Below are positions 4,338 to 43,157 of a stretch of 57,083 bases of DNA, piece by piece. The notes below the pieces were generated by a model. It did not search any database. It was not told the origin of the DNA and was given only the letters and a program-made list of their open reading frames with translations. Positions within the stretch are counted from its first letter, which is position 1. Each line of letters starts with the position of its first letter. Both the position numbers and the translations under genes were made by a program. The DNA is from Chloroflexota bacterium (GTDB lineage: Bacteria > Chloroflexota > Limnocylindria > Limnocylindrales > CSP1-4), in assembly GCA_015478725.1 (NCBI GenBank), contig JADMIG010000017.1, positions 1 through 57,083 on the forward strand, in the 5' to 3' direction.

Positions 4338-4356
4338 TCGACTCCGCGCCGCTGCC

Positions 4357-5397: not shown

Positions 5398-5474
5398 CGA
5401 ACTTCGCTCCGAGCGGGAGCGGTCATCGTTGCGTCCTGACCTTCACCTGCGAAGAGCCGGCGCGCTCCGGCCGC

Positions 5475-8756: not shown

Positions 8757-9235
8757 CGCGCCTCCTCGGAAGCATAGTCGCTGAACGACTGTTTCGTTTG
8801 GATGAGCTCGACGCGAATCCCGTCCGGGTCGATCATGTAGACGGCGCGTCCCCCCTTGTTCGGTCCGATCGTCGGAGTCACCGGCGCGGAAACGGACTCC
8901 ACGCCTTTCGCGACGAGGTCCGCGTACAGCGCGTCGAGGTCGTCCACGAAATAGGCGGTATGCGCGGTCCCCGGATTCGCGGTCCGGGTGTCGACAGGCA
9001 TCCGCTCGACATTCCGGTACTCGAGGAGCTCAAGAAAGACCTCGGAATCGGGGGGTCGCAGGATCGCCGCGTGAAGATCCACTTCAGGGTAGCCGACGAG
9101 CTCGCCGATGTAGGGGGCCTGCGGGTTCCAGGCGAACACGACCTCGAACCCGAGCACGTCCCGATAGAACGCCACGGACCGCTCCAGGTCGCGCACCTGA
9201 AGCCCGGTGTGATGTGGTCGAGTGATCGCGGCCAT
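8753..9235 (-). CDS. VOC (glyoxalase/dioxygenase fold) family protein
   Basis: A 160-residue vicinal-oxygen-chelate protein with two beta-alpha-beta-beta-beta modules. The four expected metal ligands are visible: His in RPHHTGLQV, Glu in EVFLELLEY, His in GTAHTAYFV and Glu in IRVELIQT. Members include glyoxalase I, methylmalonyl-CoA epimerase and ring-cleaving dioxygenases; the single-domain size fits the epimerase or glyoxalase group. It sits between an MR-family dehydratase and a CoA-transferase, overlapping the latter by four bases. An epimerase of a 2-substituted acyl-CoA or of a keto-sugar intermediate would fit, but this is a guess from context. Confidence 0.85.
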   Translation of the reverse strand: MAAITRPHHTGLQVRDLERSVAFYRDVLGFEVVFAWNPQAPYIGELVGYPEVDLHAAILRPPDSEVFLELLEYRNVERMPVDTRTANPGTAHTAYFVDDLDALYADLVAKGVESVSAPVTPTIGPNKGGRAVYMIDPDGIRVELIQTKQSFSDYASEEAR

Positions 9236-9260
9236 CAGGACGAGGTGCTCCCTTCAGGGT

Positions 9261-10394
9261 TCATAGGTCGTCGAGAAGGCCGTCCGGATCGACCACGGTC
9301 TGCGTGGCAATCCAGGCCGGATCCACAAGGCGACCGAAGCCGGGCGACTCGGGCAAGGGATCCATCAACCCATCTCGGACCACGGGCTGGGCGAGGCTGT
9401 CGTCCATCGGATGGACGCCGGTGCCCGGGATCCCCCACTCGATCGGAGACTCTGTATGTCCGAGGGCGCCCAGGACCTGGGAGTGGATGTGCGGGTACAT
9501 GTGAGGCGACAGGAATTTGCCGGCCGCCGCGACCGCCGCGGCGATCGGACGCAAGCGGGTGATCCCACCGTTGGTCGTGGCATCCACCCGATTGACATCG
9601 ACCGCGTCGTACTTCAGGAGCGCCTGCGGATGGTACGAGCCGCCCTGCTCGTCGCCCATCGCGACCGGCGTTGCGATCCCCTTTCGGATCTCGGCGACCA
9701 TCGCCGCATCGCCGGGCGGGACGATGTCCTCAAACCAGCCGATGTTCAAACCATCGAGTCGCCTTCCGAAGGCGACCGCGTCGGCTGCCGTCTTGTGCAG
9801 GAAGTTCGCATCGATCCCAAGCCACGCCTCGGGGAACGCCTCGCGGGCTGCACGCAGACGTTCGATGGAACCATCCTGGGTCGGGGCGATCGGCAGCTTG
9901 AACCGGCGCCAACCTCTGTCCCACAGGCCGGCCATCTGGGCGACGGTCGCCTCTGCGGAGATCGACGGCGGGTAGCCGACGATCGCGGTCGCGGGCATCC
10001 GCTCACGACCACCGCCGAGAAAGGCCGCGATGGACTGACCAGCCGCCCGGGCGGCGAGGTCCCATGCGGCGAGATCCACGAGCGACAGGGCCCGCATCCC
10101 GATGCCTGCTGCGTGCACGGCGTTGTTCGCCCAGAGCGCCTTGAAGAACAGTCGCTCCGGATCGTCGAGCGGTTCGGCAACGTAGGCCGGAGCGATCGTC
10201 CGGTCGACGATCGCCGCAAGCGGGCCATCCCGCGTCAGGCAATACGCGAAGCCGCGCAGCCCGCTCTCCGCGTCGATTCGGACGAGGGCAAACTCGCGAT
10301 GGCGCATGACCCATGTGCCGAAATGGATCGGCACCTCGAGGGTGTGGATGATCGTCGCCACCCGAATGCGGGTGATCCGGTCGAGGTCGGCCAT
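9261..10394 (-). CDS. Mandelate racemase/muconate lactonizing family protein (acid-sugar dehydratase-like)
   Basis: A 377-residue enolase-superfamily enzyme. The N-terminal capping domain (FGTWVMRHREFALVRI) precedes a beta-barrel with metal ligands Asp195 (GIDAN), Glu222 (WFEDI) and Asp248/Glu249 (MGDEQGG), and His298 in LSPHMYPH as the likely acid/base. The usual KxK on the second strand reads FKLP, with only Lys166. Such enzymes abstract a proton next to a carboxylate and mostly dehydrate aldonic acids to 2-keto-3-deoxy acids. It is closely similar to the product at 18213-19352 and related to that at 47648-48778, so these form one expanded subfamily. It follows the SDR gene by nine bases. 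Substrate unknown. Confidence 0.88.
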   Translation of the reverse strand: MADLDRITRIRVATIIHTLEVPIHFGTWVMRHREFALVRIDAESGLRGFAYCLTRDGPLAAIVDRTIAPAYVAEPLDDPERLFFKALWANNAVHAAGIGMRALSLVDLAAWDLAARAAGQSIAAFLGGGRERMPATAIVGYPPSISAEATVAQMAGLWDRGWRRFKLPIAPTQDGSIERLRAAREAFPEAWLGIDANFLHKTAADAVAFGRRLDGLNIGWFEDIVPPGDAAMVAEIRKGIATPVAMGDEQGGSYHPQALLKYDAVDVNRVDATTNGGITRLRPIAAAVAAAGKFLSPHMYPHIHSQVLGALGHTESPIEWGIPGTGVHPMDDSLAQPVVRDGLMDPLPESPGFGRLVDPAWIATQTVVDPDGLLDDL

Positions 10395-10403
10395 CGTGTC
10401 CCC

Positions 10404-11210
10404 CTACGCCGTCAAGTAGCCGTCGTCGCACATCAGCGTGTGCCCGGTGACGAGCTCGGAGGCATCGCTCGCGAGAAAGATCGCCGCACCGATCAGCTCG
10501 CGCGGTAGACCCAACCGTGGGCGGAGCATCCGCGCCTTGATGAAATCCGCGGTCAGGGACGTCCGCTGGGCCGCCTCGCGAGTCAGGGGGGAGTCCATCA
10601 GGGTTGGGCCGATGGCGTTGACGCGAACCCCCCGGTCGCGCCATTCGAGAGCCAGGCCGCGCGTGATCCCGAGCACCCCACCCTTCGAGGCAAGGTACGC
10701 GCTCGCCCATGGATATCCGACAAAGGACCCGATCGAGCCGAGGTTGATGATGCTGCCCGAGCCTTGACCCAGCATCTTCCGGCCGAATGCCTGGCAGCAC
10801 AGGTAGGTGCCCTTGAGGTTCAGCTCCACGATGAAGTCGAATCGGTCCTCCGGGAACTCCTCGGCGGGCGAGCGATAGGCCGTGCCCGCGCTGTTGACGA
10901 GGATATCGACCCTACCGAGTTCGGCGACCACCGAGTCGGCGAGGGCATCGACCTCGGGTTTGGACGTGACGTTCAGCCGGCGAACGTGGGCCGTACCACC
11001 CTGCTCGCTGATGGTCGCTGCCGTGGCCTCGACGCCCTCTTCGTTGATGTCGGCCAGGACGACCGTCACTCCGGCCTGGGCGTACCCGATCGAGATCGCT
11101 GCGCCCAGTCCGCTGCCGGCGCCGGTGACAACCGCGACCCGGTCGCGCAGGTCGAACAGTGAGCCGACGAATCCGGCGGGAATCGCCAGATCGTCGTCAG
11201 GAAAGCTCAT
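10404..11210 (-). CDS. Short-chain dehydrogenase/reductase (SDR)
   Basis: A 268-residue classical SDR, NAD(P)-dependent. TGAGSGLG is the dinucleotide loop, LADI suggests NAD preference (acidic residue after strand 2), NSAG replaces the usual NNAG, and the catalytic set is Ser in NLGSIGS and YxxxK in YLASK. The C-terminus ends in VTGHTLMCDDGYLTA. The ATG at 11210 overlaps the isomerase-like gene by four bases; longer upstream frames are not protein-like. In this operon it would oxidise a hydroxyl of a sugar, lactone or sugar acid, but the substrate is not readable. It is one of three SDRs on the minus strand of locus A, which suggests several oxidation steps. Confidence 0.92.
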   Translation of the reverse strand: MSFPDDDLAIPAGFVGSLFDLRDRVAVVTGAGSGLGAAISIGYAQAGVTVVLADINEEGVEATAATISEQGGTAHVRRLNVTSKPEVDALADSVVAELGRVDILVNSAGTAYRSPAEEFPEDRFDFIVELNLKGTYLCCQAFGRKMLGQGSGSIINLGSIGSFVGYPWASAYLASKGGVLGITRGLALEWRDRGVRVNAIGPTLMDSPLTREAAQRTSLTADFIKARMLRPRLGLPRELIGAAIFLASDASELVTGHTLMCDDGYLTA

Positions 11211-11506
11211 CGTGGATCTCCAGGCTCGGGATGGGGATCGTTGGGATGGGCGGCAAGGGGATGAACCTCGACCGACAACCACGGGTAGAAGGGGAGCGAG
11301 GCGATGGCCGCGTGCAGCTCCGTCGAGTTGGGCGCCACCCACAGGCCCCAGTTCGCCCGCCGTCCCGGGATGCGCCACAGGCGGCTGATGATCCCGGCCT
11401 CGCCCAGCTCGCGCGCGCGGGTACGCTCGGCAGTAGTCAGCCGCTGAAGCTCGTTGGGATCGCCATCGGCTGGCCATCGGACTTCGATGTGCACGAGGAA
11501 CTCCAT
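11207..11506 (-). CDS. Muconolactone delta-isomerase-like small protein
   Basis: A 99-residue protein of the muconolactone isomerase (CatC) family, which normally moves a double bond in a five-membered lactone in the beta-ketoadipate pathway. EFLVHIEVRWP at the N-terminus, then ERTRARELGEAGIISRLWRI and NWGLWVAPN are the family pattern, and the length is right (about 95). No other beta-ketoadipate genes are present. It lies two bases after DUF4432 and overlaps the next SDR, so it is an integral operon member. In a sugar pathway it could isomerise an unsaturated lactone or act as a small dimeric accessory protein. The family is fairly clear; the role is uncertain. Confidence 0.8.
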   Translation of the reverse strand: MEFLVHIEVRWPADGDPNELQRLTTAERTRARELGEAGIISRLWRIPGRRANWGLWVAPNSTELHAAIASLPFYPWLSVEVHPLAAHPNDPHPEPGDPR

Positions 11507-11508
11507 GG

Positions 11509-12552
11509 TCAGGCTCCCAGTTCCAGCTGGTTCACGGCGGGCCCGATCGCGGCGCGCAGCGTGACCCCGAACGCGCGACGAGCGCCCGGAGCGAGCTCAT
11601 CCAGCGGCGCGGCTTCGCGTTCGGCGACGCGCCCGAACAGTGCGCAGTTCGCCGGCTCGATGCCCGTCACGTAGATGCCCTCGGCGAGCATCCGCCACTG
11701 CCACAGACGAGGCAGCGACCGTCGGTCGTATTCGACCGCGACACCGATCCCGCCGCTCGGCTCGAACCCTTCGTTGATGATCCCCACCCGGACGCGATCC
11801 GGGCTCGATGCCGCCAGACGATGCTCGAAGACCTGCACCGGGAAGCCCGGCGTCGGGGGCGCGAACCGGTCATGGTCGGGCTCAGCGGCCCGTGAGACGT
11901 CGTCCCAGCCGACAACCTCCGCTGGCGGAGCGAACAGACGAGATGTGGCAGCCACGACCGGGTGGCCGACGTTGATGTGGTAAAGGACAAACACGGGCGC
12001 AGGAAGGTAACCACGATTCTCGATCTCATCGCTGAGCTCGATCCGTGGATCACCGACCGGGAATCGGAGCGTTCGATGGAGTACAAGGTCGACGCCGTAG
12101 ACGGTGGTCTCGCGAACCTCTCCGCGGACGACCACGGCCAGGCCTCGTTCGTCTTCCTCGGTGTCGACCGTCACGTTGCGAGCCGGCAGGTTCGAGACTC
12201 TACCGTGGAGGCCATGATGCTCATCGCCGTCGCGGACAGCCGAGCCAACGTTTTGGAGGCCCGCCGTGAAGAGCAGGCCGCCGTGGAACGAGCGCAACCA
12301 GACATCGTCGCGGAAATAGGACGGGTGGACGATTCCCGTCGGCGACTGCCAGGCGAGCGGATATCCGGAGCACCAGGCCTGACCGATGTCCAGGCCCCGG
12401 TCTGCGATCACCAGCGCGTGGATCCCACCGGCGACGCGGACATCGATCGCGCGGACGCCGTCTTCAGCGCCGTCGCCGAGTCTTACCAACCGGCCACTCG
12501 CAATCTGCCCGAGGTCACCGAGCTCCGGGCGCGGGGCGGGTGCAGTGCTCAT
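11509..12552 (-). CDS. DUF4432 family protein (aldose 1-epimerase-like)
   Basis: A 347-residue protein of the DUF4432 group within the galactose-mutarotase-like superfamily. ALVIADRGLDIGQAWCSGYP and HGLHGRVSNLPA near the N-terminus, VLYHINVGHP in the middle and YVTGIEPANC at the end are typical. Such proteins are found in sugar and sugar-acid clusters and are thought to interconvert sugar anomers or related forms, but few have been tested. The ATG at 12552 shares ATGA with the stop of the upstream SDR, which favours it over an in-frame ATG 12 bases earlier. Its presence supports a carbohydrate substrate for the operon. Confidence 0.85.
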   Translation of the reverse strand: MSTAPAPRPELGDLGQIASGRLVRLGDGAEDGVRAIDVRVAGGIHALVIADRGLDIGQAWCSGYPLAWQSPTGIVHPSYFRDDVWLRSFHGGLLFTAGLQNVGSAVRDGDEHHGLHGRVSNLPARNVTVDTEEDERGLAVVVRGEVRETTVYGVDLVLHRTLRFPVGDPRIELSDEIENRGYLPAPVFVLYHINVGHPVVAATSRLFAPPAEVVGWDDVSRAAEPDHDRFAPPTPGFPVQVFEHRLAASSPDRVRVGIINEGFEPSGGIGVAVEYDRRSLPRLWQWRMLAEGIYVTGIEPANCALFGRVAEREAAPLDELAPGARRAFGVTLRAAIGPAVNQLELGA

Positions 12553-13376
12553 TTGCTCAGCCAAGGGGGCGTCACGTAGTCGTCCCAGGCAGCCCCTTTG
12601 CCGGCATCGACCGGCACCGCTGCGCCGGTGATCCCCGTCGCAAGCGGTGATACGAGGAAGGCGATCGCGGCGGCGATGTCGCGCGAGGTCAGGACCCGCC
12701 CGAGCGGATGTTTGGAGGCGAAGGATTCCAGCACGGCGGCGCCGTCGGGCAGCGTCGCCAGACGTCCCTCGAGGAGGGGGGTCAAGGTGACGCTCGGGCA
12801 GACCGCGTTGACGGTGATCGCCTCCCGGGCGAGGTCCAGGGCTGCGGCCCGGGCAAGATTGAGGAGGGCGCCTTTGGACGTACAGTAGGACGCCATTCCT
12901 GGTTCGGCCTGAAGACCATCAAGGCTCGACAGCACGACTAGCGCTCCGTGGCCACGTCGGCGCATCTGGGGCACCGCCTCGCGAATGACCAGGAAGGCGC
13001 CTCGGACGTTGACGGCCATGACCTTGTCGAAGTGCGCGACCGACGTCGCGTCGATGGGCTGGTAGTCGCCGAGGATCCCGGCGCAGGCGATCGCGATGTC
13101 GACATCACCAAGGTCGGTGTGGGTGGTCTCAAAGGCTCGCCGGACGTCGTCCTCGGATGCAGAATCGCCTTCGACCGCGACCGCGCGTCGTCCTGTTGCG
13201 CGGATGAGTTTGGCCACGCCTTCCGCTGCACGGGGCGTGATGTCAAAGATCGCGACATCGGCGCCGAGGTCGGCAAGAGTCAACGCTGTTTCGCGGCCGA
13301 TGCCAGACCCGCCCCCGGTGACCAGGGCGATGGAACCGTCCAGACGGAGACCCGGGAATGGCGTTCGATCCGCCAT
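12549..13376 (-). CDS. Short-chain dehydrogenase/reductase (SDR)
   Basis: A 275-residue classical SDR. Visible motifs are TGGGSGIG (coenzyme loop), the acidic FDITPRAAE after strand 2 pointing to NAD, IACAG in place of NNAG, Ser in VVLSSLDG, the active-site YCTSK and the C-terminal VDAGKGAAWDDY. It overlaps its neighbours on both sides by ATGA-type junctions (SMP-30 upstream, DUF4432 downstream). The order SMP-30, SDR, DUF4432 suggests that it oxidises an aldose at C1 to a lactone, which the SMP-30 enzyme would then open. That assignment is inference from neighbours. Confidence 0.9.
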   Translation of the reverse strand: MADRTPFPGLRLDGSIALVTGGGSGIGRETALTLADLGADVAIFDITPRAAEGVAKLIRATGRRAVAVEGDSASEDDVRRAFETTHTDLGDVDIAIACAGILGDYQPIDATSVAHFDKVMAVNVRGAFLVIREAVPQMRRRGHGALVVLSSLDGLQAEPGMASYCTSKGALLNLARAAALDLAREAITVNAVCPSVTLTPLLEGRLATLPDGAAVLESFASKHPLGRVLTSRDIAAAIAFLVSPLATGITGAAVPVDAGKGAAWDDYVTPPWLSK

Positions 13377-14254
13377 CAGCCGATCTTCCCAGGATGGAGC
13401 GGCTGACCGGTTCTTCCGAGCGCGATCCGCCAGAGCGCCCCGCCGAACGACGGGTCCGCGCTATCGGCCGGAACGCCGGCGTCGGTCATGTACAGGTTCT
13501 CGCCGTCGAAGGCGCAGTTGGTTGCCGCGTTTCCGCACGCGATGAATTCATCCACGGTGCCGTCGGGCTGCAGGACGTGGATGCCCGCGGCCGTGATGTC
13601 GGTCACGTACAAGCGCCCATCCGCGCCGATCTTCATACCGTCCAGGATCGGGTTCGCGCCGGGCAGCTTACCGAGATCCTCGATGTCCGTCGAACCTGTG
13701 CGCAGCCGTCGAACATGCCCAGTGTAGGACTCGTCCCAGACAATTGACCCATCCCTCTCGATCGCCAGTCCATTGGGGAAGACCGGGGCCGGGAAGGCGA
13801 TGATGACATGGCCAGTCCCGTCCGGCTCGAGCGCGAAGATGTAGCTTGGATCGGGTGCTGCCGGGTTGTAGGTCCCGGGATCCGTGAAATACAGGCGCCC
13901 GTCCGCCCCGAACACGAGGTCGTTGGGTCCGTTGAGCTTGATGCCCTCGATCTCCGTGATCAGGACCTCAGCCGATCCCCCCTCATGATCGACCCGCTGA
14001 ATCGACGGAACACTCATCTCGGCCGCCCGCCACGGCCCCACCGTCCCGCCGTTCTGGCAGACGTAGAGCGCGCCATCGGAGCCAAGGACGCTCGAGTTCG
14101 GCGCCCCCGCTGTGTATGCGTAGCGCCCGACTCCGTCGGGACTCCAGACCGTCAGCTGGCTACGGTAGCTCTCGACGAAGACGACCCGACCATCTGGCAG
14201 AACCGTCGGCCCCTCCGGCCAGCCGAGTCCGCTGGCGACCTGCTCGATGTGCAT
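13376..14254 (-). CDS. SMP-30/gluconolactonase family protein
   Basis: A 292-residue six-bladed beta-propeller lactonase of the SMP-30/gluconolaconase/LRE family, which hydrolyses sugar lactones to acids with a divalent metal. The metal ligands can be placed at Glu in WPEGPTVL, Asn in GPNDLVF and Asp in LYVTDIT, with the repeated blade motif (DGRLYFTDPG, DGRLYVTD). It lies directly after the ABC permease genes and overlaps the next SDR. With an SDR on one side and MR-family dehydratases in the operon it would supply the aldonic acid for dehydration. No secretion signal is seen, so it acts in the cytoplasm. Confidence 0.88.
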   Translation of the reverse strand: MHIEQVASGLGWPEGPTVLPDGRVVFVESYRSQLTVWSPDGVGRYAYTAGAPNSSVLGSDGALYVCQNGGTVGPWRAAEMSVPSIQRVDHEGGSAEVLITEIEGIKLNGPNDLVFGADGRLYFTDPGTYNPAAPDPSYIFALEPDGTGHVIIAFPAPVFPNGLAIERDGSIVWDESYTGHVRRLRTGSTDIEDLGKLPGANPILDGMKIGADGRLYVTDITAAGIHVLQPDGTVDEFIACGNAATNCAFDGENLYMTDAGVPADSADPSFGGALWRIALGRTGQPLHPGKIG

Positions 14255-14287
14255 CGTGGCCTCCCGAAATGACGGTGCGATTGGTCG

Positions 14288-15121
14288 TCAGCGGATCGCG
14301 CCGGACGTGATCCCGCGCACGATGTAGCGCTGGATGAACAGGGAGAAAATGAAGATCGGAATGATGGTGACGATCCCGACGGCGGCAGCGATATTCCAGT
14401 CGATCGGGCGGTCGGCACTGACCAACGTCGCTGCTCCGAGCGTCACGGTCTGGAGATCACGCGAGTTAATGACAAAGAGCGCGACGAGGAACTCGTTCCA
14501 CACGAAGATGGCACCGAAAATCGCCGCGACGATCAATCCTGGGCGCACGATTGGCAGCATCACCCGCAGGAGTAGTTGGGCTCGGCCGCAACCGTCCACT
14601 CGAGCCGCGTCGTCGATCTCCATCGGCACTTCGTCAAAGAAGCCAATCATGATCCAGACGACGAGCGGGAGGGTGAAGGCCACATACGGCAGCACCAGTC
14701 CCACATAGGAGTCCTCCTGGTGGAGAAACGTGACCATCAGGAAGATGGGGATGGCGACCGCGACTCCAGGCATGAACCGGAAGCTGAGGATCGTGGACGC
14801 CCATGTGTCTCTTCCTCGGAAGCGAAGCCGGGAGAACGCATAGGCGGCCGGCGTTCCGACGATCAGGCCAACGAGGGTCGCGATGCCCACCACGATGATC
14901 GAGTTCCCGACGAACGCGAGCATCCCCTGGGTCCCGATCACTTCGGTGTAGTTCCTGACGATCGTCGACCAGTCGAAGCTCAGGGTCGGTGGCACGTCTG
15001 AGGCGATCTCGATCCGTGTCTTCAATGACAGGATGAGGAGGTACGCGAATGGGCCGAGGGCGACGATCGCGATGAGCGCGAGCACAACGTACGCAGCCAC
15101 CCGCCCGACGACGTGTCTCAT
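14288..15121 (-). CDS. Carbohydrate ABC transporter permease (MalG-like)
   Basis: A 277-residue inner-membrane permease with six predicted hydrophobic segments, starting YVVLALIAIVALGPF. The cytoplasmic EAA loop (MEIDDAARVDGCGRAQLL...LPIVRPG) that docks the ATPase is present. The C-terminal FIQRYIVRGITSGAIR is typical of MalG/UgpE-type permeases. The ATG at 15121 overlaps the stop of the partner permease. It belongs with the permease at 15118-16023 and the binding protein at 16095-17627. No ATPase gene is present in the operon, so a shared MsmK/UgpC-like ATPase encoded elsewhere probably powers it. Confidence 0.92.
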   Translation of the reverse strand: MRHVVGRVAAYVVLALIAIVALGPFAYLLILSLKTRIEIASDVPPTLSFDWSTIVRNYTEVIGTQGMLAFVGNSIIVVGIATLVGLIVGTPAAYAFSRLRFRGRDTWASTILSFRFMPGVAVAIPIFLMVTFLHQEDSYVGLVLPYVAFTLPLVVWIMIGFFDEVPMEIDDAARVDGCGRAQLLLRVMLPIVRPGLIVAAIFGAIFVWNEFLVALFVINSRDLQTVTLGAATLVSADRPIDWNIAAAVGIVTIIPIFIFSLFIQRYIVRGITSGAIR

Positions 15122-16023
15122 GCGCCCTCCTGCCCGCGCAAGCGGACGAAACGGAGGGTCACCGTGGAGAGGACGATCAGGACGACGACCATCACGTAGG
15201 CGATCGCCGCCGAATACCCGTACTGCTGAAAGTCGAATCCGGTCTGGTAGGTCAGAAAGCTCAACGTCGTTGTTGTGCGAGCTGGTCCTCCATAGGTCAG
15301 GCCATAGACGAGGTCGAACGAGCGAAAAGCGTCGATGGCCCGAAAGATGGCCGCAAACGCAATCGCCGGCGCGAGGAGCGGCAGCGTGATGTACCGGAAG
15401 GTCGCCCACCGGCCAGCGCCGTCAACTTGGACGGCCTCAAACACATGCTCGGGTAGCGCCTGCAGCCGGGCGTACACGACGAGGAATACAAATGGGGTCC
15501 ATTGCCAGGTGTCCGCGATCACCAGCGTGCGGATGGCCCAATCCGTCGAACCCAACCAGTTGATGGGCGGCAGACCGAGCCGTCCGATGGCCCAATTGAC
15601 GATGCCCCAGTCGGGGTTGAGCATCGCCCTCCACATGACTCCCACGACGATGGGGGTCAAGAGCATCGGCAGGATGAGCGCTCCGCGTACCAGCCAGGAG
15701 CCCCGCAGGCGCTGGTTGAAGAAGAGGGCGAGTCCAACGCCAAGAACAACTTGCAGGACGACAGCCGACCCCACCATCACTGCGGTGGTCCGTGCCGCGT
15801 TCCAGAAAAACGGATCATTGAAGACCGCGACGTAGTTGTCGAAACCGACCCAGTGGCCCGAGTCTTTCGCAATGCCCAGGTCGGTGAACGAAAGCCGCAG
15901 ACTGTAGAGCAGCGGAAAAACCGAGAATGCGAACAGGTAGATGAGGCATGGACCGAGCAGGAGCAGGACGTCGCGCGTGTTACGCGAGACCAAACGCGAC
16001 GTCCTGCCCCCCCTTTCGGTCAC
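15118..16023 (-). CDS. Carbohydrate ABC transporter permease (MalF/UgpA-like)
   Basis: A 301-residue inner-membrane permease. It opens with a charged N-tail, then TM1 (VLLLLGPCLIYLFAFSVFPL) and the periplasmic SLRLSFTDLGIA segment; the EAA loop reads EAVQVDGAGRWATFRYITLPLLAP, and LTYGGPARTTTTLSFLTYQ is typical of this group. The start is taken as GTG at 16023 because upstream sequence in frame is not protein-like and overlaps the binding-protein gene in a wrong frame; a GTG 27 bases earlier is possible. It is cotranscribed with the partner permease (four-base overlap). Together they import a sugar or sugar-acid oligomer. Confidence 0.9.
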   Translation of the reverse strand: MTERGGRTSRLVSRNTRDVLLLLGPCLIYLFAFSVFPLLYSLRLSFTDLGIAKDSGHWVGFDNYVAVFNDPFFWNAARTTAVMVGSAVVLQVVLGVGLALFFNQRLRGSWLVRGALILPMLLTPIVVGVMWRAMLNPDWGIVNWAIGRLGLPPINWLGSTDWAIRTLVIADTWQWTPFVFLVVYARLQALPEHVFEAVQVDGAGRWATFRYITLPLLAPAIAFAAIFRAIDAFRSFDLVYGLTYGGPARTTTTLSFLTYQTGFDFQQYGYSAAIAYVMVVVLIVLSTVTLRFVRLRGQEGA

Positions 16024-16094
16024 AGGAAGACGACCTACCCTGCCGGTCACCTGAACAGTCGCAGGCGCTCTCGGGCGGCCGTAGTTTTCGTCGA

Positions 16095-17627
16095 TCAGAC
16101 GAGAACGCCGGCCTTGCGGAGCGAGGCTTCCCAGAGCGTCTGGACGTTGGCACAGGCCGTCTTGGCGTCCTGCGCACCGATGAGCGCCTTGTTGAATTCG
16201 ACGTTCATCGACGCGTTCATCCCGAAGAAGTCGGCGAGGATAGACGTCTCGATGGTGTGGGCCCCGGCGTTCGCCGCGCCGGAGATCGGCAGATAGGGCA
16301 GCTTGGCGATCAGGGTCGGATCGTTGTAGGTCGAATTCCGGCTCGGGTCGATCTGGTACTGCAACTCCTCGTAGTTGTTGAACGACTTGCTCGTCATCCA
16401 TGTGAGCGCCCGCCAGGCGGCTGCCTTCTTCGTCGGGTCGGCGTTCGCTGGAATCCCGACCCCCCAGCCACCGAGGATCGCCTGCGACGTCTGACCTGGC
16501 GCGGCTGGGACCGGGGTGACGCCGGTCATCGTGGCGACCTTGGAAGTGGCCGGGTTGTACACCGGCCCGGCGATCGTGGACCAGAAGACCATCTGGGCGA
16601 TCTTGCCGGAGGAGAACGCATCCACGTTCTCCGGGAAGCCATACGAAGTCACGTTCGTCGGCGCATACGGCAGCAAGTCGATGAGCATCTGGAGCGCGCC
16701 GACCGCCTCGGGACTGTTGAGGTTGGGCTTGAAGTCCTTGGTCGCCGGGCTGCCGGTCAGGAGGACGCCGCCCGTGGTGAGGAACGTCGTGTACCAGGAG
16801 ACGGTGGCCAAGGAGAAGTCGTTGGCGCCGATGAAACTGCAGCCTGCCACTTGGCCCGGCTTGTTCAGGGCCTTCGCCGCCGCCTTGAAATCGTCCCACG
16901 TCTTGGCCGGCTGAAGACCCGCCGCGTCGAAGAGATCCTTCCGGTAGAAGTAGACGACCGAGCCGCTGTGCAAACCAGGAATGCCGTAGAGATTGGTCCC
17001 TTTGCCGAGCGTCTTGGTCGTCGGATCGAAGATTCCGACGTTGTTGAGGTTCGCCGTCGCGAAGTCCGAGAAGTCCCAGTCTGGCGGCGTCTCCGCGGGA
17101 TCATCCTTGTATTTGTTGAGCTGCTCGAACGAGCCGTTCGACAGGTAGCCTGTGGTGAGGAAACCCAGATAGTTGACGAGTTCGAACGCAGACTGCGATG
17201 CAGCGAGCTCCTGACCCGTCTTTGGGATGAGAGCGTTGAGGGCGGGCGCGCTGATCGTGAGGTCAATGCCCGTTTCGGTCTTGAGTTGGGCGACTTTGTC
17301 TCCGAGGGCCCGGTGGTCGTTCTCGCTACCGGTCATCAAGATGCTTACCTTGGTACCGGCATACTTCATCGGGTCGAAGGTCCCGCCAGCCGACGATGCC
17401 GCGGGGCTCGATCCGGCGGCCGATGGCCCGCTCGAGCTTGCGGCGGCCGATGGGGCCGCAGTCGCGGCCGAGCCGCAGGCAGCCAGGATTGCGCTGATCG
17501 CGCCGCCGGAGAGGCCAAGGATGGTCGCCCGTCGGACAAATTCACGCCGACTGATCCGGCCGGCGAGCAGACCCTGGACAGCCGCCGAGACGGCGCCGTC
17601 GCCCCTCGGCGTGGCTTCCTGGTTCAC
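16095..17627 (-). CDS. Extracellular solute-binding protein of a carbohydrate ABC transporter (lipoprotein)
   Basis: A 510-residue family 1 binding protein. The N-terminus has a twin-arginine motif (SRREFVRR at 26-33), a hydrophobic stretch and a lipobox ending at Cys51 (ILAAC), then an Ala/Ser-rich linker to about residue 80, so it is probably exported folded by Tat and lipid-anchored. The binding domain includes TVSWYTTFL, VYFYRKDLFDAAG, WDDFKAAAKALNKPG and ILGGWGVGIPA. The start is GTG at 17627, preceded by GAGGAGG. It is the first gene of the long operon that runs to mct; its promoter overlaps a candidate LacI site (17683-17725). The ligand is unknown. Confidence 0.93.
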   Translation of the reverse strand: MNQEATPRGDGAVSAAVQGLLAGRISRREFVRRATILGLSGGAISAILAACGSAATAAPSAAASSSGPSAAGSSPAASSAGGTFDPMKYAGTKVSILMTGSENDHRALGDKVAQLKTETGIDLTISAPALNALIPKTGQELAASQSAFELVNYLGFLTTGYLSNGSFEQLNKYKDDPAETPPDWDFSDFATANLNNVGIFDPTTKTLGKGTNLYGIPGLHSGSVVYFYRKDLFDAAGLQPAKTWDDFKAAAKALNKPGQVAGCSFIGANDFSLATVSWYTTFLTTGGVLLTGSPATKDFKPNLNSPEAVGALQMLIDLLPYAPTNVTSYGFPENVDAFSSGKIAQMVFWSTIAGPVYNPATSKVATMTGVTPVPAAPGQTSQAILGGWGVGIPANADPTKKAAAWRALTWMTSKSFNNYEELQYQIDPSRNSTYNDPTLIAKLPYLPISGAANAGAHTIETSILADFFGMNASMNVEFNKALIGAQDAKTACANVQTLWEASLRKAGVLV

Positions 17628-17682: not shown

Positions 17683-17725
17683 ACCGTACTAGACGGGACC
17701 AACGATTGTCAACAATCCTTTGTTC
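17683..17725 (-). promoter_or_regulatory. Promoter and candidate LacI operator of the locus A main operon
   Basis: On the minus strand there is a perfect -35 TTGACA (forward 17707-17712), an 18-base spacer and a -10 TACGGT (17683-17688). The -35 runs straight into AATCGTT. Just upstream, forward 17712-17725 (GAACAAAGGATTGT on the minus strand) nearly repeats the GAACAAACGATTGT site at 20.2 kb. The site overlaps the last codons of the MaoC gene. Shared sequence with the two promoters at 20.2-20.3 kb suggests one LacI-type repressor for all three. The motif is seen directly; the regulator is inferred. Confidence 0.6.
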
Positions 17726-18185
17726 CGACTCCACGGCAGGCCACCCGGCGTTCTTCCTCGATGGCGGCCACTTCCTCACCGCGCTGGTTTCGACCGACGA
17801 TTCGGCGACGGACGACACCTCCTCGACCATCCGCCAAGGGCACACCAGAGAGGATGACCGACTCCGCCCGCAGGGTGTCGCCGGCAAAGACGGGGCCCGC
17901 GAGGCGGATTGAGATCCAGCCCCAGGACCGGCCGAGGACCGCATCCGCAGGCGGCCACTCGATCGGTTCCGCTAAGCCCGCCACCACGGCGACGGTGAGG
18001 GCACCGAGGACGACCGGTTGGCCATAAGCGGTCGTCCGAGCGTAGTCGGCATTGGCGTGCAGGTCGCTCGCGTTGTTCGAGACCATCGCGAGCCATACGT
18101 GCTCGTCGGAGCCGATCGTCCGACCCCCAGGGTGCTCGATCGTGAGACCGGGCTGAGCGTCCTCGAACGACCATCTCGAGATCAT
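17709..18185 (-). CDS. MaoC-like hot-dog hydratase/dehydratase
   Basis: A 158-residue single hot-dog-domain protein of the MaoC/FkbR2 type, which adds or removes water across an enoyl-CoA double bond. FEDAQPGLTIEHPGGRTIGSD, the segment NNASDLHANADYA and LAGPVFAGDTLRAESVILSG are family features, with Asp and His in DLHANADYA at the catalytic position. It resembles the protein at 22575-23105. The ATG at 18185 is used; a TTG at 18209 with a better-placed GAGG is possible and would add eight residues. It follows an MR-family dehydratase in a short minus-strand operon. In this context it may act on a hydroxyacyl-CoA from a sugar acid. Confidence 0.85.
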   Translation of the reverse strand: MISRWSFEDAQPGLTIEHPGGRTIGSDEHVWLAMVSNNASDLHANADYARTTAYGQPVVLGALTVAVVAGLAEPIEWPPADAVLGRSWGWISIRLAGPVFAGDTLRAESVILSGVPLADGRGGVVRRRIVGRNQRGEEVAAIEEERRVACRGVGTKDC

Positions 18186-18212
18186 GGCCCGAGCGTTCGG
18201 CACGGCCAACGA

Positions 18213-19352
18213 TTACAGGCCTCGGAGGATCCCATCGGGATCATCATGAGGTTGAGAGCGGATCCACTCCGGGTCGACGAGGTGGCCGAACCCGGGTGCC
18301 TCGGGTAACGCTGCCATCCGCCCGCCTACCTCGATGGTCGGCTGGGGCAACGGGTCGTCCATCGGGTGGACCCCCGTGAACGGGATCCCCCACTCGATCG
18401 GCGCGTCGGCGTAACCGAGGCCGGCAAGGACCTGGCTGTGGACGTGGGGGAACATGTGCGGGGCGAATGCCAGCCCCGCCGCGAGGACCTGGTCGATGAT
18501 CCGTCGGCCTCGGGTGATCCCGCCCATGCAGGTGAAATCGACCCGGACCACGTCGACGGCCGCCTCGGTGATCAGCGCCTCCGGGTAGTAGATGCCTCCC
18601 TGCTCATCACCCGTGGCGATCGGCGTCGCGGTGAGCTCACGCAGACGGCGCAGCTGCCCGGCATCTCCCGGTGGGAAGACATCCTCGAACCAACCCAGGT
18701 TGACGTCGGCGATCGAGTTGACGAACGCGGCTGCGACTCCAACATCGTCATACACCCATGCGGCGTCGAGGCCGAGCCAGGCATCCGGGGCTGCGGCGCG
18801 AGCGGCCCGAAGTCGGGCGGCCGTCCGCTCGGGAGTGGCCGCGATCGGCGCCTTGAACCGCCGCCAGCCCGACGCGTAGAGCTCGGCAGTCTGGGCGCCC
18901 GTCTCCTCCGGCCCCATCGTGGCTGGGGGATAGCCGATGATCGCCGTTACCGGCATCGGTCGATTCGCGCCACCGAGCAGCCCGGCGATCGAGAGGTCAG
19001 CCGCCTTCGCAGCCAAGTCCCATGAGGCGAGGTCGACGATCGACAGGGCGCGAAGCCCGATCCCGGCCGCATGGGACGCGAGACTGCGTCGCCAGGCGAC
19101 CGTGAACGTCCTCTCCTGCTCGCCGACGGCTGTCCCGACGTACATGCGCGCGATCGTCTTGCGGATCTGCTCGGCAACGGCACCGTCCCGGGTCAGCGTG
19201 TAGGCGTAGCCGCGCAGCCCAGCTGTGGAGGTCACTCGAACGAGGGCGAATTCGCGATAGTTCATGATCCACTCGCCAAAGACGACCGGCGCGGGGAGTT
19301 GCGCCTGAATCGTCATCACCTCGACGGCATCGATCGTGTCGGTTCCGCTCAT
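18213..19352 (-). CDS. Mandelate racemase/muconate lactonizing family protein (acid-sugar dehydratase-like)
   Basis: A 379-residue enolase-superfamily enzyme, clearly paralogous to the one at 9261-10394. Metal ligands are Asp196 (GLDAAW), Glu223 (WFEDV) and the acidic pair in TGDEQGG; the His dyad region reads APHMFPHVHS. The second-strand KxK is FKAP, again with one Lys (Lys167) followed by Pro. The C-terminus shares EAPGFGHLVDPEW with its paralogue. It overlaps the upstream SDR by four bases and precedes MaoC. It would dehydrate or epimerise a sugar acid. Two close paralogues in one regulon suggest two related substrates or two steps on the same chain. Confidence 0.88.
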   Translation of the reverse strand: MSGTDTIDAVEVMTIQAQLPAPVVFGEWIMNYREFALVRVTSTAGLRGYAYTLTRDGAVAEQIRKTIARMYVGTAVGEQERTFTVAWRRSLASHAAGIGLRALSIVDLASWDLAAKAADLSIAGLLGGANRPMPVTAIIGYPPATMGPEETGAQTAELYASGWRRFKAPIAATPERTAARLRAARAAAPDAWLGLDAAWVYDDVGVAAAFVNSIADVNLGWFEDVFPPGDAGQLRRLRELTATPIATGDEQGGIYYPEALITEAAVDVVRVDFTCMGGITRGRRIIDQVLAAGLAFAPHMFPHVHSQVLAGLGYADAPIEWGIPFTGVHPMDDPLPQPTIEVGGRMAALPEAPGFGHLVDPEWIRSQPHDDPDGILRGL

Positions 19353-20161
19353 CGGTCGCCACCAGCACTCGAGGCCCAGGCCCCCTGGGCCATGAAGCCG
19401 CCGTCGACGCTGAGGTACTCGCCAGTGATGAAGCTTGCCCGGTCGCCGGCGAGGAAGAGGACAGCCTCGGCGATATCCTCAGGGCGACCGATGCGTCCAA
19501 GGGGGTGGACCGATCCGTAGCGCTTCACATTGGCCTCGATGTCCCCGCCTTCAGCCCGAGCCAGATCGCGGACCAACTCGGTATCGATGGTGCCCGGGCA
19601 GATGGCCACGACGCGGATGCCCTCCGCAGCGTAATCGAGGGCCATGTTCCGTGTCAGCGAGAGAATGCCGCCTTTGCTGGCCGCGTAGGCGGGCACGCCG
19701 GGCATCGACTGAAGGCCCTGCACGCTCGACATGTTGACCACAACGCCGCCCCGCCCGGTTTCGCGGATCCGCGGGAGAGCGTATTTGGACATGAGGAACA
19801 CCCCCTTGAGGTTAACCCCGATGATCCGGTCCCAGACCTCCTCGGGCATGTCCTCAAGCCGGAAGTACCAATGAGTCGGCTGGATCCCCGCGTTGTTGAC
19901 GAGGATGTCGAGCCGGCCGAGATGCGCGACCGTCTGGCTGACAATCCGCTCGGCATCCGTCGCCGAGGCGACGTCTCCGACCACCGCGACGACGCGGGCG
20001 CCCGTCGCCCCGAGCTCGGCGGCCAAGGCCTCGGCTGCGGGCCCATCGACATCTGCGATCGCTACCCGAGCCCCGGCTGCGGCGAACGCCCAAACGATCC
20101 CGCGCCCGATGCCGAGCGCGCCGCCGGTGACGAGCACCGCTCTGCCATCGAAGTCGCCCAT
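19349..20161 (-). CDS. Short-chain dehydrogenase/reductase (SDR)
   Basis: A 270-residue classical SDR. TGGALGIG is the coenzyme loop, IADVDGP suggests NAD, and NNAG is intact. The active-site Ser lies in NMSSVQGLQ, the catalytic Tyr/Lys in YAASK, and the C-terminal VDGGFMAQGAWAS closes the substrate pocket. It is the first gene of the short minus-strand operon SDR-MR-MaoC. Its promoter (20204-20233) contains a candidate LacI operator. The order suggests oxidation of a sugar before or after dehydration by the MR-family enzyme; the substrate is not identifiable. Confidence 0.92.
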   Translation of the reverse strand: MGDFDGRAVLVTGGALGIGRGIVWAFAAAGARVAIADVDGPAAEALAAELGATGARVVAVVGDVASATDAERIVSQTVAHLGRLDILVNNAGIQPTHWYFRLEDMPEEVWDRIIGVNLKGVFLMSKYALPRIRETGRGGVVVNMSSVQGLQSMPGVPAYAASKGGILSLTRNMALDYAAEGIRVVAICPGTIDTELVRDLARAEGGDIEANVKRYGSVHPLGRIGRPEDIAEAVLFLAGDRASFITGEYLSVDGGFMAQGAWASSAGGDR

Positions 20162-20203
20162 GTCATCCGCCCTCGGTTAGATCTCCTCGACCTGACTGTA
20201 CCG

Positions 20204-20233
20204 AACGTACCTGATTGAACAAACGATTGTCAA
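20204..20233 (-). promoter_or_regulatory. Promoter of the SDR-MR-MaoC operon with a LacI-type operator in its spacer
   Basis: On the minus strand: -35 TTGACA (forward 20228-20233), 18-base spacer, -10 TACGTT (forward 20204-20209). The operator core ACAAACGATTGT occupies forward 20219-20230, overlapping the -35 and spacer, within a looser dyad ATTGA...TCAAT. Its exact reverse complement lies at 20279-20290 in the divergent promoter, 60 bases away. This position is classic for repression by steric block. Confidence 0.65.
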
Positions 20234-20269
20234 TCCGGACATGAACGGCTTCACCGCGACACCGGAGGG

Positions 20270-20298
20270 TTGCGGGGCACAATCGTTTGTTGTACGTT
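20270..20298 (+). promoter_or_regulatory. Promoter of the lipoyl/E2/CitE operon with a LacI-type operator in its spacer
   Basis: On the plus strand: -35 TTGCGG (20270-20275), 17-base spacer, -10 TACGTT (20293-20298), the same -10 as the divergent promoter. The operator core ACAATCGTTTGT (20279-20290) fills the spacer and is the reverse complement of the site at 20219-20230. The leader to the start at 20346 is about 40 bases and carries AGGAGG just before the ATG. Confidence 0.6.
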
Positions 20299-20345: not shown

Positions 20346-20588
20346 ATGCGCGTCCCGATCGAGATGCCCCAGCTTGGCTACGACATGTCCACCGGGCGGA
20401 TCGCGTCATGGCTGAAGGCGGTCGGAGACAAGGTTCAGCGGGGTGAGCCGATCGCCGAGATCGAGACGGAGAAGTCGACTGTCGAGATGGAGGCCCTCGC
20501 CAGCGGCATCCTCGTAGAGATCATCCACGACGCTGGCAGCGAGGTCCCCGTCGGGGAGGTCATCGGCCAGCTCGAGACGGAGGAATGA
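20346..20588 (+). CDS. Stand-alone lipoyl domain protein (E2 N-terminal domain)
   Basis: An 80-residue lipoyl domain, normally the N-terminus of E2 acyltransferases. IEMPQLGYDMSTGRIASWL and the lipoylation loop ETEKSTVEMEA with Lys43 are canonical, followed by VPVGEVIGQLE. The protein ends after the domain with no hinge, no E3-binding domain and no catalytic domain; the catalytic domain is the next gene, overlapping by ATGA. It would carry the acyl group from E1 (probably the pair at 5.5-7.5 kb, same regulon) to the E2 catalytic protein. The ATG follows an AGGAGG. Splitting an E2 this way is unusual. Confidence 0.92.
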   Translation: MRVPIEMPQLGYDMSTGRIASWLKAVGDKVQRGEPIAEIETEKSTVEMEALASGILVEIIHDAGSEVPVGEVIGQLETEE

Positions 20589-21283
20589 GCGCTGGTTGGC
20601 ACGCCGTCGCCCTGAGTCCGATGCGCGCGGCGATCGCTCGCCGGATGGTCCACAGCAAGCAGGTCGCACCGCACTTCTACGTGAGCGTCGAGGTCGACAT
20701 GACCGCCGTCCTGGAGTCTGCGGCTCGGCGCAACGCGGGACACGCCCCCGACGAGCGGGTGACCGTCACGGCCTATCTGCTCCGAGCGTTGGCGATGAGC
20801 CTGGCCAGCCATCGGGCGTTCAATGCGATCTGGGCAGATGACGAGCTCCGGCTTGTCGACGCCATCAACATCGGCGTCGCCATCGCCCTCGACGACGGCC
20901 TCATTGCGCCAGCCCTCCTCGATTGCACGGATCGATCCGTGGCAGCCCTCGCCATTGGTCTCCGCGATCTGACCCAGCGGGCGCGCTCTGGACGACTTCG
21001 GCCGGCGGAGATCAATGACGCCACGTTCACCCTCAGCAATCTCGGGATGTACCCGATCTCGGGCTTCACCGCGATCATCACGCCGCCGCAGGTCGCGATC
21101 CTGGCGACCGCTCGGATCGAGCCGCGAGCGGTCGTCATCGGCGGCGCGGTCGGGATCCGGCCGATGCTAACCGCCACTCTCTCGGCCGATCACCGAGCGC
21201 TGGACGGCGCTTCCGCGGCAGCCTTCCTCGCCGATCTCCGGGCCGCCCTCGAAGCCGCCGCGGAATGGCAGGATCCGGCGTGA
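20585..21283 (+). CDS. 2-oxo acid dehydrogenase acyltransferase (E2) catalytic domain, stand-alone
   Basis: A 232-residue protein equal to the catalytic domain of dihydrolipoamide acyltransferases, transferring an acyl group from lipoamide to CoA. LSPMRAAIARRM is the usual domain start, TLSNLGMYPISGFTAIITPP and AILATARIEP are core strands, and the active-site motif is DHRALDG with His203. No lipoyl or peripheral subunit-binding domain is fused, and the protein starts right at the domain edge. It is translationally coupled to the lipoyl gene (ATGA) and to the CitE-like gene (GTGA). How it would bind E1 and E3 without a subunit-binding domain is unclear; core assembly as trimers remains possible. 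Confidence 0.9.
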   Translation: MSAGWHAVALSPMRAAIARRMVHSKQVAPHFYVSVEVDMTAVLESAARRNAGHAPDERVTVTAYLLRALAMSLASHRAFNAIWADDELRLVDAINIGVAIALDDGLIAPALLDCTDRSVAALAIGLRDLTQRARSGRLRPAEINDATFTLSNLGMYPISGFTAIITPPQVAILATARIEPRAVVIGGAVGIRPMLTATLSADHRALDGASAAAFLADLRAALEAAAEWQDPA

Positions 21284-22578
21284 CGAGCGATCGGCGGTCG
21301 CTCGAGGACCACATCAGGGAGGCCACTCGGCGTCAGGAAGCGGGCTCCTCCGCGCTGACTGGCCGTCGGGTGGCCCTCCCTCTCCGCTTTTGGCGCCAGG
21401 CGGCGCATTTCACGACGCCGGCAGGCGACGAGGCGATGGGCCGCAAGGCGATCGAGGGCGGCACCGAGCCGATGGCGCGGATCCTCGAGCGGATGGGATT
21501 GACCGGCGGCAACCTGGCCGAACGCCTGGAGACCGACCGGGGAGAAGTCGAGCGACTTCTGGCGACACCGCGGCGGGCGCCGCTTGTCATGCTCGACGGG
21601 GAAGACGCCCAGGCCCTCCGCAACGACGTCGTGGCTCAGGGACTCGCCAATGCGGCGAACCTCGTCGCCGGGGCAGATTGGACGGGCGATGGCCCGGCGA
21701 CACTCCGCTTCTTCCGACCGCCCGGCTTTGCCCTCGGCACGACAGTGCACGATCTGTATAGCGTCATGTGGCAGATTGCCGACGCCTCGCCACCGGGACG
21801 ATACGCGCTGGACGGAATCGTCTTTCCCAAGCTCGAGCATCCAGAAGAAGTCGGCCTGCTGTACGACATCCTCGACCAGGGGGAGGCAGCTCTCGGCCTG
21901 GCGCAGGGAACGATCCGTGTTGCCTTTCTGATCGAGTCCGGGTGGGCCGTCGCCCGGTTGGCAGAGATCGCCGTCCGTGCCGCGTCGCGCGCCTGCGCGC
22001 TTATCTTCGGGCTGGCCGACTACTCGGCTGACCTCGGCCTGCCCGCGATCTCGACCGACCACGCCCTGGCAAGCTGGGCGCGGGGGGAGATCGTGGCCGT
22101 CGCCGGCGCCTTGGGAGTGCCGGCGATAGACGGAATGACGCTCGACTACCCGGTCAGCGACCCGGCGCTCGATGCCGCCGCCAACCGCGAACGATTTCTC
22201 GTCCGGATGCGGCTTGTCTATGACGACGCGATCCAGGCCCGCGATCTCGGCATGACCGGCAAGTGGGTCGGCCACCCGGCCCAATTGTTCGCCGTCCTGC
22301 TGGCGTTCGATGCCGCCTTCGCACCGGCAACCCTCGAGGTCGAGGCGGCCAAACTTGACGCCTACCGGGCAGCGGTCAACGAAGGCCGCGGCGCAACTAT
22401 CATCGAGGGCATCATGTCTGATCGGGCGACCGATCGCCACGCCCGGGTACTCCTGCGCCGCGCTACAGCCCATGGCCGGTTCGCACCCGGCCGGGCCTTC
22501 GAGCTCGGTGTAATCGACCGCGATGAGCTGGCCGAACTCAAGAGCGCGTCGATCCTTGGGGGCACGTCTGGATCATGA
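21280..22578 (+). CDS. HpcH/HpaI aldolase/citrate lyase (CitE-like) family protein
   Basis: A 432-residue TIM-barrel lyase of the CitE/malyl-CoA lyase superfamily, which cleaves or forms C-C bonds of 3-hydroxyacyl-CoA thioesters with Mg2+. Matching elements are LDGEDA (105-110), the Arg-containing RFFRPPG (143-149), PKLEHP (183-188), a metal-binding Glu in LIES (217-220) and Asp in FGLADYSADLG (243-253). It is longer than CitE (about 290) or malyl-CoA lyase (about 350), with an extra N-terminal 100 residues. The GTG at 21280 shares GTGA with the E2 stop and has AGGA upstream. Likely reaction: cleavage of a beta-hydroxyacyl-CoA to acetyl-CoA plus an aldehyde or keto acid; the substrate is unknown. 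Confidence 0.8.
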   Translation: MTSDRRSLEDHIREATRRQEAGSSALTGRRVALPLRFWRQAAHFTTPAGDEAMGRKAIEGGTEPMARILERMGLTGGNLAERLETDRGEVERLLATPRRAPLVMLDGEDAQALRNDVVAQGLANAANLVAGADWTGDGPATLRFFRPPGFALGTTVHDLYSVMWQIADASPPGRYALDGIVFPKLEHPEEVGLLYDILDQGEAALGLAQGTIRVAFLIESGWAVARLAEIAVRAASRACALIFGLADYSADLGLPAISTDHALASWARGEIVAVAGALGVPAIDGMTLDYPVSDPALDAAANRERFLVRMRLVYDDAIQARDLGMTGKWVGHPAQLFAVLLAFDAAFAPATLEVEAAKLDAYRAAVNEGRGATIIEGIMSDRATDRHARVLLRRATAHGRFAPGRAFELGVIDRDELAELKSASILGGTSGS

Positions 22579-23105
22579 GAATCGACTGGGAGGGGCGCTT
22601 CCTCGAGGACTTCACCGTCGGTGACGTCTACCGTCACGTCAACGGGCGGACGATCAGCGAGACCGATAACACGTGGTTCACCCTGCTGACGAGCAATACC
22701 CACCAGATCCACGTGAATGCCGATTACGCCGCGCGAACCGAGTTCGGGCGCCCCCTTGTCGTGAGCACCCTGACCTTGGCGATCGTCACGGGACTGAGCG
22801 TGGCTGACGTGAGCCAGAATGCCGTGGCCAATCTGGGTTGGGACAACATCAAGCTGACGTCGCCGGTGTTCGCGGGCGACACCCTGTATGCCTCGAGCGA
22901 AGTCCTCGAAGTGCGGCCTTCTCGCTCTCGACCGGGTCAGGGGATCGTCCGAGTCCGGACCCGTGGCTTCAACCAGCGCAATGAGACGGTCATCGAATTC
23001 GAGCGATCTGTCCTCGTCTATGCGCGCGCGGCTCGGCCTGAGAGACGGGTCGAGACCGACCGCGATGTCGCATCGCCCGAGCCGCCGAACCCTCTCGACC
23101 CGTAG
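22575..23105 (+). CDS. MaoC-like hydratase (mesaconyl/itaconyl-CoA hydratase-like)
   Basis: A 176-residue hot-dog hydratase. FLEDFTVGDVYRHVNGRTI, then NTHQIHVNADYA with the catalytic acid and His, and LTSPVFAGDTLYASSEVLE match the MaoC group that includes mesaconyl-CoA and itaconyl-CoA hydratases. The C-terminal 25 residues are Arg/Pro-rich and not conserved. The start ATG overlaps the lyase stop (ATGA). A MaoC hydratase next to a CitE-like lyase is the arrangement of C5-dicarboxylate degradation (itaconate, mesaconate to citramalyl-CoA to acetyl-CoA and pyruvate), and Mct in the same regulon points the same way. A sugar-derived hydroxyacyl-CoA is the alternative. Confidence 0.85.
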   Translation: MRIDWEGRFLEDFTVGDVYRHVNGRTISETDNTWFTLLTSNTHQIHVNADYAARTEFGRPLVVSTLTLAIVTGLSVADVSQNAVANLGWDNIKLTSPVFAGDTLYASSEVLEVRPSRSRPGQGIVRVRTRGFNQRNETVIEFERSVLVYARAARPERRVETDRDVASPEPPNPLDP

Positions 23106-23256
23106 TCAGGTTATCCGCACCGGGTCGCCGGAATTCACCTTCTGGCGGATGCGACTGCCAGTTCCGGTCGACCAGACCACAGCGTCCAGCAACGGCGGCC
23201 CGGATGTCCGGGTCGCATCGCGCACCCAGAAACCGGGCGGATGGAGGAGGCTCTCG

Positions 23257-24003
23257 ATGGGCTATGCGACGAGCCGTCTGGCCGTAGTAACCGGTGCGGC
23301 GAGCGGGATTGGGCTCGCGACCGCCAAGCGCCTGCTCTCGGAAGGCGCCTCGGTCCTTGCGGTGGACATCAGCGAGGCTGGGTTGGGTCCGATTGCCGAC
23401 CTCGGCGCGACGCCGGTCGTTGCCGACCTGGGCGAGGAGACCGGCCGGGCGCGGGTTATAGAGGCGGGCCGCGGAGCCCAATATCTTGTGAATGCGGCCG
23501 GAATCCTTTTCGTGAAGCCCATCCTTGAGGTGACCACGGAGGATTGGCGGCGGATCTTCCGGATCAACGCCGAGTCGATGTTCTTCCTGATTCAGGGCAT
23601 CGGACCCACCATGCCCGCCGGCGGGGCGATCGTGAACCTGTCATCGGCTTCCGCGAAGCTCGCAACCACAGTTGACCTCGCCCATTACGCAGCCACAAAG
23701 GCTGCCGTCCTCTCGATTACGCGCTCATTCGCATACGCCCTCGCGCCGCATAACGTGCGCGTCAACGCGATCTGTCCCGGGATCATCGACACCCCGATGC
23801 AGGAGAAGGTCCTCGAGGGGATCTCGGCGCTCCGTCGGATCACACCCGAGGAACTCGACGCGGCCCGTGTCAAGACCGTCCCGCTGGGGCGAACAGGCTC
23901 GGCCGACGAGTGCGCAGGGCTGATCTGTTTCCTCCTGTCTGATGCGGCTTCGTACATGACCGGTCAGGCGGTAAATCTGACCGGCGGCTGGGTGATGTGG
24001 TGA
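23257..24003 (+). CDS. Short-chain dehydrogenase/reductase (SDR)
   Basis: A 248-residue classical SDR. TGAASGIG is the coenzyme loop and AVDIS points to NAD; VNAAG replaces NNAG. Ser is in NLSSASAKL, the catalytic pair in YAATK, and the end is TGQAVNLTGGWVMW. The start ATG at 23257 follows GGAGGAGG with a six-base gap; earlier in-frame starts overlap the MaoC gene. It is the last recognised gene of the plus-strand operon of locus A, 151 bases after MaoC. Its short central region (no lid insertion) is like hexitol and 2-deoxy-gluconate type dehydrogenases, but the substrate is not certain. Confidence 0.9.
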   Translation: MGYATSRLAVVTGAASGIGLATAKRLLSEGASVLAVDISEAGLGPIADLGATPVVADLGEETGRARVIEAGRGAQYLVNAAGILFVKPILEVTTEDWRRIFRINAESMFFLIQGIGPTMPAGGAIVNLSSASAKLATTVDLAHYAATKAAVLSITRSFAYALAPHNVRVNAICPGIIDTPMQEKVLEGISALRRITPEELDAARVKTVPLGRTGSADECAGLICFLLSDAASYMTGQAVNLTGGWVMW

Positions 24004-43108: not shown

Positions 43109-43115
43109 GTCTTGT

Positions 43116-43144
43116 AGCATAGCGTCGCTGCTGGTGCGTGTCAC
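43116..43144 (-). promoter_or_regulatory. Promoter of the LacI-E1 operon (locus B)
   Basis: On the minus strand: -35 GTGACA (forward 43139-43144), 17-base spacer, -10 TATGCT (forward 43116-43121). The expected transcription start falls next to the ATG at 43108, which suggests a very short leader or leaderless mRNA. Confidence 0.5.
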
Positions 43145-43157
43145 CACCGATTCAGGC

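Follow-up and report, generated by a model that had tools for sequence, protein, structure and literature searches.

A predicted local LacI-family regulon of three operons for sugar or sugar-acid processing in a Chloroflexota bacterium

Comparative genomics of the LacI family (Ravcheev et al. 2014, PMC4052901) has described operators that are even palindromes with a central CG pair and that are located, for the most part, 30-140 bp ahead of the start codon. The same study reported 72% autoregulation across the family, as well as overlapping double sites whose spacing peaks at 13 bp. The solved repressors PurR and CcpA are global regulators with their own operators and effectors. Within the phylum Chloroflexota, the LacI-family regulator RhmR of Chloroflexus aurantiacus was proposed for a sugar uptake operon (PMC3870299).

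We analysed a stretch of 57,083 nucleotides (the window) from a Chloroflexota bacterium, in which a LacI-family regulator, LacI1 (4357..5397, minus strand), is encoded near the distal end of a long operon. As in the local sugar regulons of PMC4052901, the regulator lies in a sugar cluster, the sites are even palindromes with a central CG at the usual distance from start codons, and autoregulation is predicted. Unlike those regulons, the present one, predicted from sequence, includes a dedicated 2-oxoacid dehydrogenase and CoA-ester enzymes, and neither the LacI1 clade, nor the core operator ACAAWCGWTTGT, nor the regulon content was matched to a described regulon in this analysis. When the literature was searched for the core palindrome, only an unrelated retrotransposon paper came up. 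LacI1 resembles PurR and CcpA across the DNA-binding and effector domains, but it is a local regulator. Its likeness to RhmR is at the family level; the RhmR operon is one for rhamnose oligosaccharides with other genes.

Three operons make up the locus. Operon 1 (3090..17627, minus strand) runs without large gaps from a solute-binding-protein (SBP) gene to a CoA-transferase III gene. Its first half encodes, in order, the SBP, two ABC permeases (the upstream one identified through its orthologues), an SMP30/gluconolactonase-like protein, an SDR, a DUF4432 protein and another SDR; an enolase-superfamily dehydratase, a glyoxalase-like protein, CoA-transferase III, E1 alpha, E1 beta, LacI1 and a second CoA-transferase III follow. 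Operon 2 (17709..20161, minus strand) encodes SDR3, a second enolase-superfamily dehydratase and a MaoC-like hydratase. The divergent operon 3 (20346..24003, plus strand) encodes a lipoyl protein, an E2 acyltransferase, an HpcH/malyl-CoA-lyase-like protein, a RipB-like MaoC protein and an SDR. Together, they extend over 3090-24003, or 20.9 kb, in agreement with the original prediction of a regulon of about 21 kb.

The enzyme assignments are leads only, because the NCBIfam scores of the CoA-transferase, HpcH-like, MaoC and dehydratase proteins are below the curated cut-offs. The best match of the 3090-4337 product was 2-methylfumaryl-CoA isomerase (499 of 725 bits), that of 21265-22578 was malyl-CoA lyase, and that of 22575-23105 was the RipB itaconyl-CoA-type hydratase, all three below cut-off. 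These are odd partners for a sugar-acid cluster having its own 2-oxoacid dehydrogenase. No solved structure near the dehydratase 18213-19352 was found at E 1e-30.

The window contains four operators of the ACAAWCGWTTGT type, two of them perfect and two differing at one position, distributed over two promoter regions. A whole-genome motif scan showed that these four are all the sites with at most one mismatch in the 3.45-Mb genome, while the reversed pattern, used as a control at the same threshold, gave zero sites genome-wide. When two mismatches were allowed, six matches were found in the window against 1.2 expected, and none of 100 shuffles reached six. Exact copies of ACAATCGTTTGT are found at operator B (20219..20230, minus strand), in the promoter of the SDR3-enolase-MaoC operon, and at operator C (20279..20290, plus strand), in the promoter of the lipoyl-E2-HpcH-MaoC-SDR operon. 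As had been noted earlier, B and C are exact reverse complements 60 bp apart, measured from start to start; the arms are 13 bp long with 48 bp between them. Their opposite orientation means little because the site is a near-palindrome, and the information lies in the shared 13 bp.

The remaining two operators lie at the promoter of the SBP operon. Operator A2 (17712..17723), which reads ACAAAGGATTGT along transcription on the minus strand and ACAATCCTTTGT on the plus strand, has one mismatch and overlaps the first base of the -35 box TTGACA. A 20-mer of this region, GTCAACAATCCTTTGTTCCG, is identical in the related genome G010 and has equivalents in G005, G017 and G036, indicating that A2 is the conserved operator of this promoter. 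Operator A1 (17698..17709, minus strand; ACAATCGTTGGT, one mismatch) is an overlapping second site in the promoter spacer. No counterpart of A1 was seen in the relatives. The centres of A1 and A2 are 14 bp apart, close to the 13-bp peak of PMC4052901. This corrects the original prediction, which missed the doubling of the site: the conserved operator at 17.7 kb is the one at the -35 box, and the spacer site was seen in this genome only. The even palindrome has a central CG in A1, B and C, and CC in A2 as well as in its G010 counterpart. The extended operator consensus is TTGACAAWCGWTTGTCAA, and the four sites precede the three operons: A2 is 85 bp from the start codon, the others 56-71 bp.

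The ACAATCGTTKGT core is present in each of three promoter-like sequences, and these promoters with their TACGTT or TACGGT -10 boxes were found as originally described. The promoter of operon 1 (17683..17712, minus strand) reads TTGACA-N18-TACGGT, and both boxes are kept in relatives. That of operon 2 (20204..20233, minus strand) reads TTGACA-N18-TACGTT, its -35 box lying inside the extended operator. The candidate promoter of operon 3 (20270..20298, plus strand; TTGCGG-N17-TACGTT) is weaker and has no orthologous alignment. A generic sigma-70 scan reported no promoter, since TACGGT and TACGTT match TATAAT at only three of six positions. The 17.7-kb promoter call is based instead on conservation: all five SBP promoters compared, that of this genome among them, have TTGACA, and three of the five have TACGGT, with spacers of 17-18 bp. 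The last base of the operator in these promoters is also the first base of TTGACA, and in SDR3 promoters the flank of the operator itself forms TTGACA. The MaoC gene of operon 2 ends (stop codon 17709-17711) inside the 17.7-kb operator region, so operon 1 might also be transcribed by read-through from operon 2.

Orthologues of LacI1 that are 60-69% identical were found in six other genomes of the family (G064, G011, G010, G036, G017 and G005), the named counterparts of which are Chloroflexi MAGs; the next relatives have 46% identity or less. A motif scan upstream of the orthologous operons, which was the check proposed with the original prediction and covered the target promoters that are assembled, found the motif in four of these genomes, so the absence that would have spoken against the prediction was not observed. 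In G010, where most of the window's gene order is preserved, the motif precedes SBP and also lies in the SDR3-HpcH interval; in G005 it precedes the SBP gene and the SDR3/enolase operon. In G017, whose contig ends before the SDR3 upstream region, it precedes SBP and a separate CoA-transferase-LacI operon. G036 has it upstream of the CoA-transferase-LacI operon, the lipoyl gene and, in degenerate form, SBP. The presence of the motif at the relocated operons of G017 and G036 indicates that the operator stays with its genes when they are rearranged. The LacI1 orthologue is also present in G064 and G011, with no site in the cluster; an SBP orthologue was found in neither assembly, so the SBP target promoter falls outside the comparison there.

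To score the sites independently of the window, we built a matrix from eight sites of other genomes only. The four operators were the top four matches in the window, at 28.4 (operator B), 20.7, 20.7 and 17.1 bits, followed by a next best of 9.6. In 300 simulated windows, 17.1 bits was reached 14 times (~0.05 per window); therefore, site C alone is no proof, and the case rests on the set. With one genome left out at a time, both sites were the best matches in G010, G005 and G017, and in G036 the two training sites ranked first and third. Ten of the 12 sites with at most one mismatch in G000, G005, G010 and G017 fall in this cluster. Exact ACAAWCGWTTGT occurs in five of the seven family genomes with a LacI1 orthologue versus two of 100 without (Fisher p = 4e-6, indicative only because related genomes are not independent).

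Matches outside the cluster were also inspected. Those in G065 and G105, neither of which has the orthologue, are not close to any cluster homologue, and an extra G010 site (C185) lies between proline-racemase-like and TetR-like genes; we regard both cases as unrelated or due to chance. The G011 sites at C119 and C133 are likewise without cluster homologues. Specificity is less clean in G036, which has several additional motif matches elsewhere together with LacI paralogues. Further related palindromes are present on its contig 3 (13193, 41365 and 43336; L056:5194, L057:17366 and L057:19337), and one of them (TGACCAAACGTTTGACCA) lies just upstream of a LacI paralogue, possibly one with shifted specificity.

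LacI1 has an N-terminal helix-turn-helix (PF00356, 52 bits versus a cut-off of 27) and a periplasmic-binding-protein-like effector domain (PF13377, 135 bits versus 26.5), and it matches the PurR and CcpA structures over its full length. It was the sole regulator found among the scanned proteins between 3090 and 24003. The DNA-binding helix VDPST(V/A)SRVLR is near-invariant among its orthologues. In G017 and G036 the orthologue lies directly behind the CoA-transferase gene that bears the operator, and the CoA-transferase of the cluster is found in the same genomes as the LacI1 orthologues, its G005 copy scoring below threshold because the reading frame is broken. On G005 contig 26 (L063:13336-15605) both the LacI1 orthologue and the CoA-transferase are split between frames, by decay or by assembly error. 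Its position in the cluster, its co-occurrence with the motif and the genes, and its near-invariant helix make LacI1 the best candidate for the protein that would bind these operators. The genome has nine LacI-domain matches, eight of them above cut-off, and a distant paralogue is a possible alternative binder; none adjoins a copy of the motif.

Taken with the conservation of the motif, the co-occurrence with LacI1 orthologues supports the reading, already put forward in the original prediction, of a LacI regulon over three operons: the operators are very probably the sites of the local regulator LacI1, which would repress these operons until released by a pathway metabolite. Repression is the likely mode because the operators overlap the -35 box or the spacer, positions from which bound regulators normally repress. 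Most likely, a LacI1 dimer would bind each site, cover the -35 box or the spacer and so block RNA polymerase at operons 1, 2 and 3. Since the LacI1 gene lies, by position, inside operon 1, it would be autoregulated, and the metabolite would act as the effector that frees the operator. The two identical operators 60 bp apart in the divergent promoter region could also suit a DNA loop, or LacI1 might bind as an activator. We consider both very unlikely: the operator positions speak for repression, SDR3 is preceded by only one site in G010 and G005, and LacI1, as read from its sequence, ends after the effector domain with no obvious tetramerisation tail.

The window encodes a second LacI-family protein, LacI2 (42047-43177), and binding of the same sites by this protein has very little in its favour beyond its presence there. 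The region around the LacI2 start, which adjoins an ABC operon in divergent orientation, has GAAACGGTTC at 43080 and GAATCGTTTC at 43200; both follow the motif GAAWCGNTTC, with another half-site, and the region contains no ACAATCGTTTGT with up to two mismatches. In addition, the recognition helix differs (ALSTASRVL in LacI2 versus DPSTVSRVL in LacI1), and the LacI2 locus is 19 kb away. The GAAWCGNTTC pair (43080-43089 and 43200-43209) around the LacI2 start and the divergent ABC operon likely belongs to a separate regulon, and a second E1 alpha-like dehydrogenase gene (41034-42050) adjoins the LacI2 gene. It is equally hard to credit a GntR/FCD-type operator at 17.7 kb in place of the two LacI sites: A1 and A2 do jointly make a 14-bp palindrome, GATTGTCAACAATC, within a 19-nt imperfect inverted repeat, but the scanned predicted cluster proteins contain no GntR domain, the TTGT-N2-ACAA palindrome expected at every promoter occurs only at 17.7 kb, relatives keep a single ACAAWSGWTTGT-type site in its place, and LacI operators overlapping at ~13 bp are documented (PMC4052901).

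The regulation by LacI1 predicted here is that of an ordinary, textbook-type local LacI regulon, the instance being new and the kind already known. The content of the regulon appears more unusual than its regulation, as the gene assignments suggest that a sugar or sugar acid is taken up, oxidised, dehydrated and processed as a CoA ester, in a pathway that ends in CoA esters. It is quite possible, if somewhat short of probable, that the regulon forms one unit for a non-phosphorylative pathway of Chloroflexota, so far undescribed, that acts on a sugar or sugar acid. In such a pathway, lactonase and enolase-type dehydration would be followed by the dedicated E1/E2/lipoyl 2-oxoacid dehydrogenase, which would produce a CoA ester, and RipB-like hydratase, malyl-CoA-lyase-like and mesaconyl-CoA-isomerase-like enzymes would finish it. 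A literature search for a pathway of this kind gave nothing specific.

If this reading is true, the gene membership of the pathway can be read from the operator map. For a poorly studied lineage of Chloroflexota, known here only from metagenome assemblies, the operators link about 22 genes, encoded on both strands, as a single predicted functional unit. This unit may help to decide on pathway membership, and the operator would provide a ready assay for the inducing sugar.
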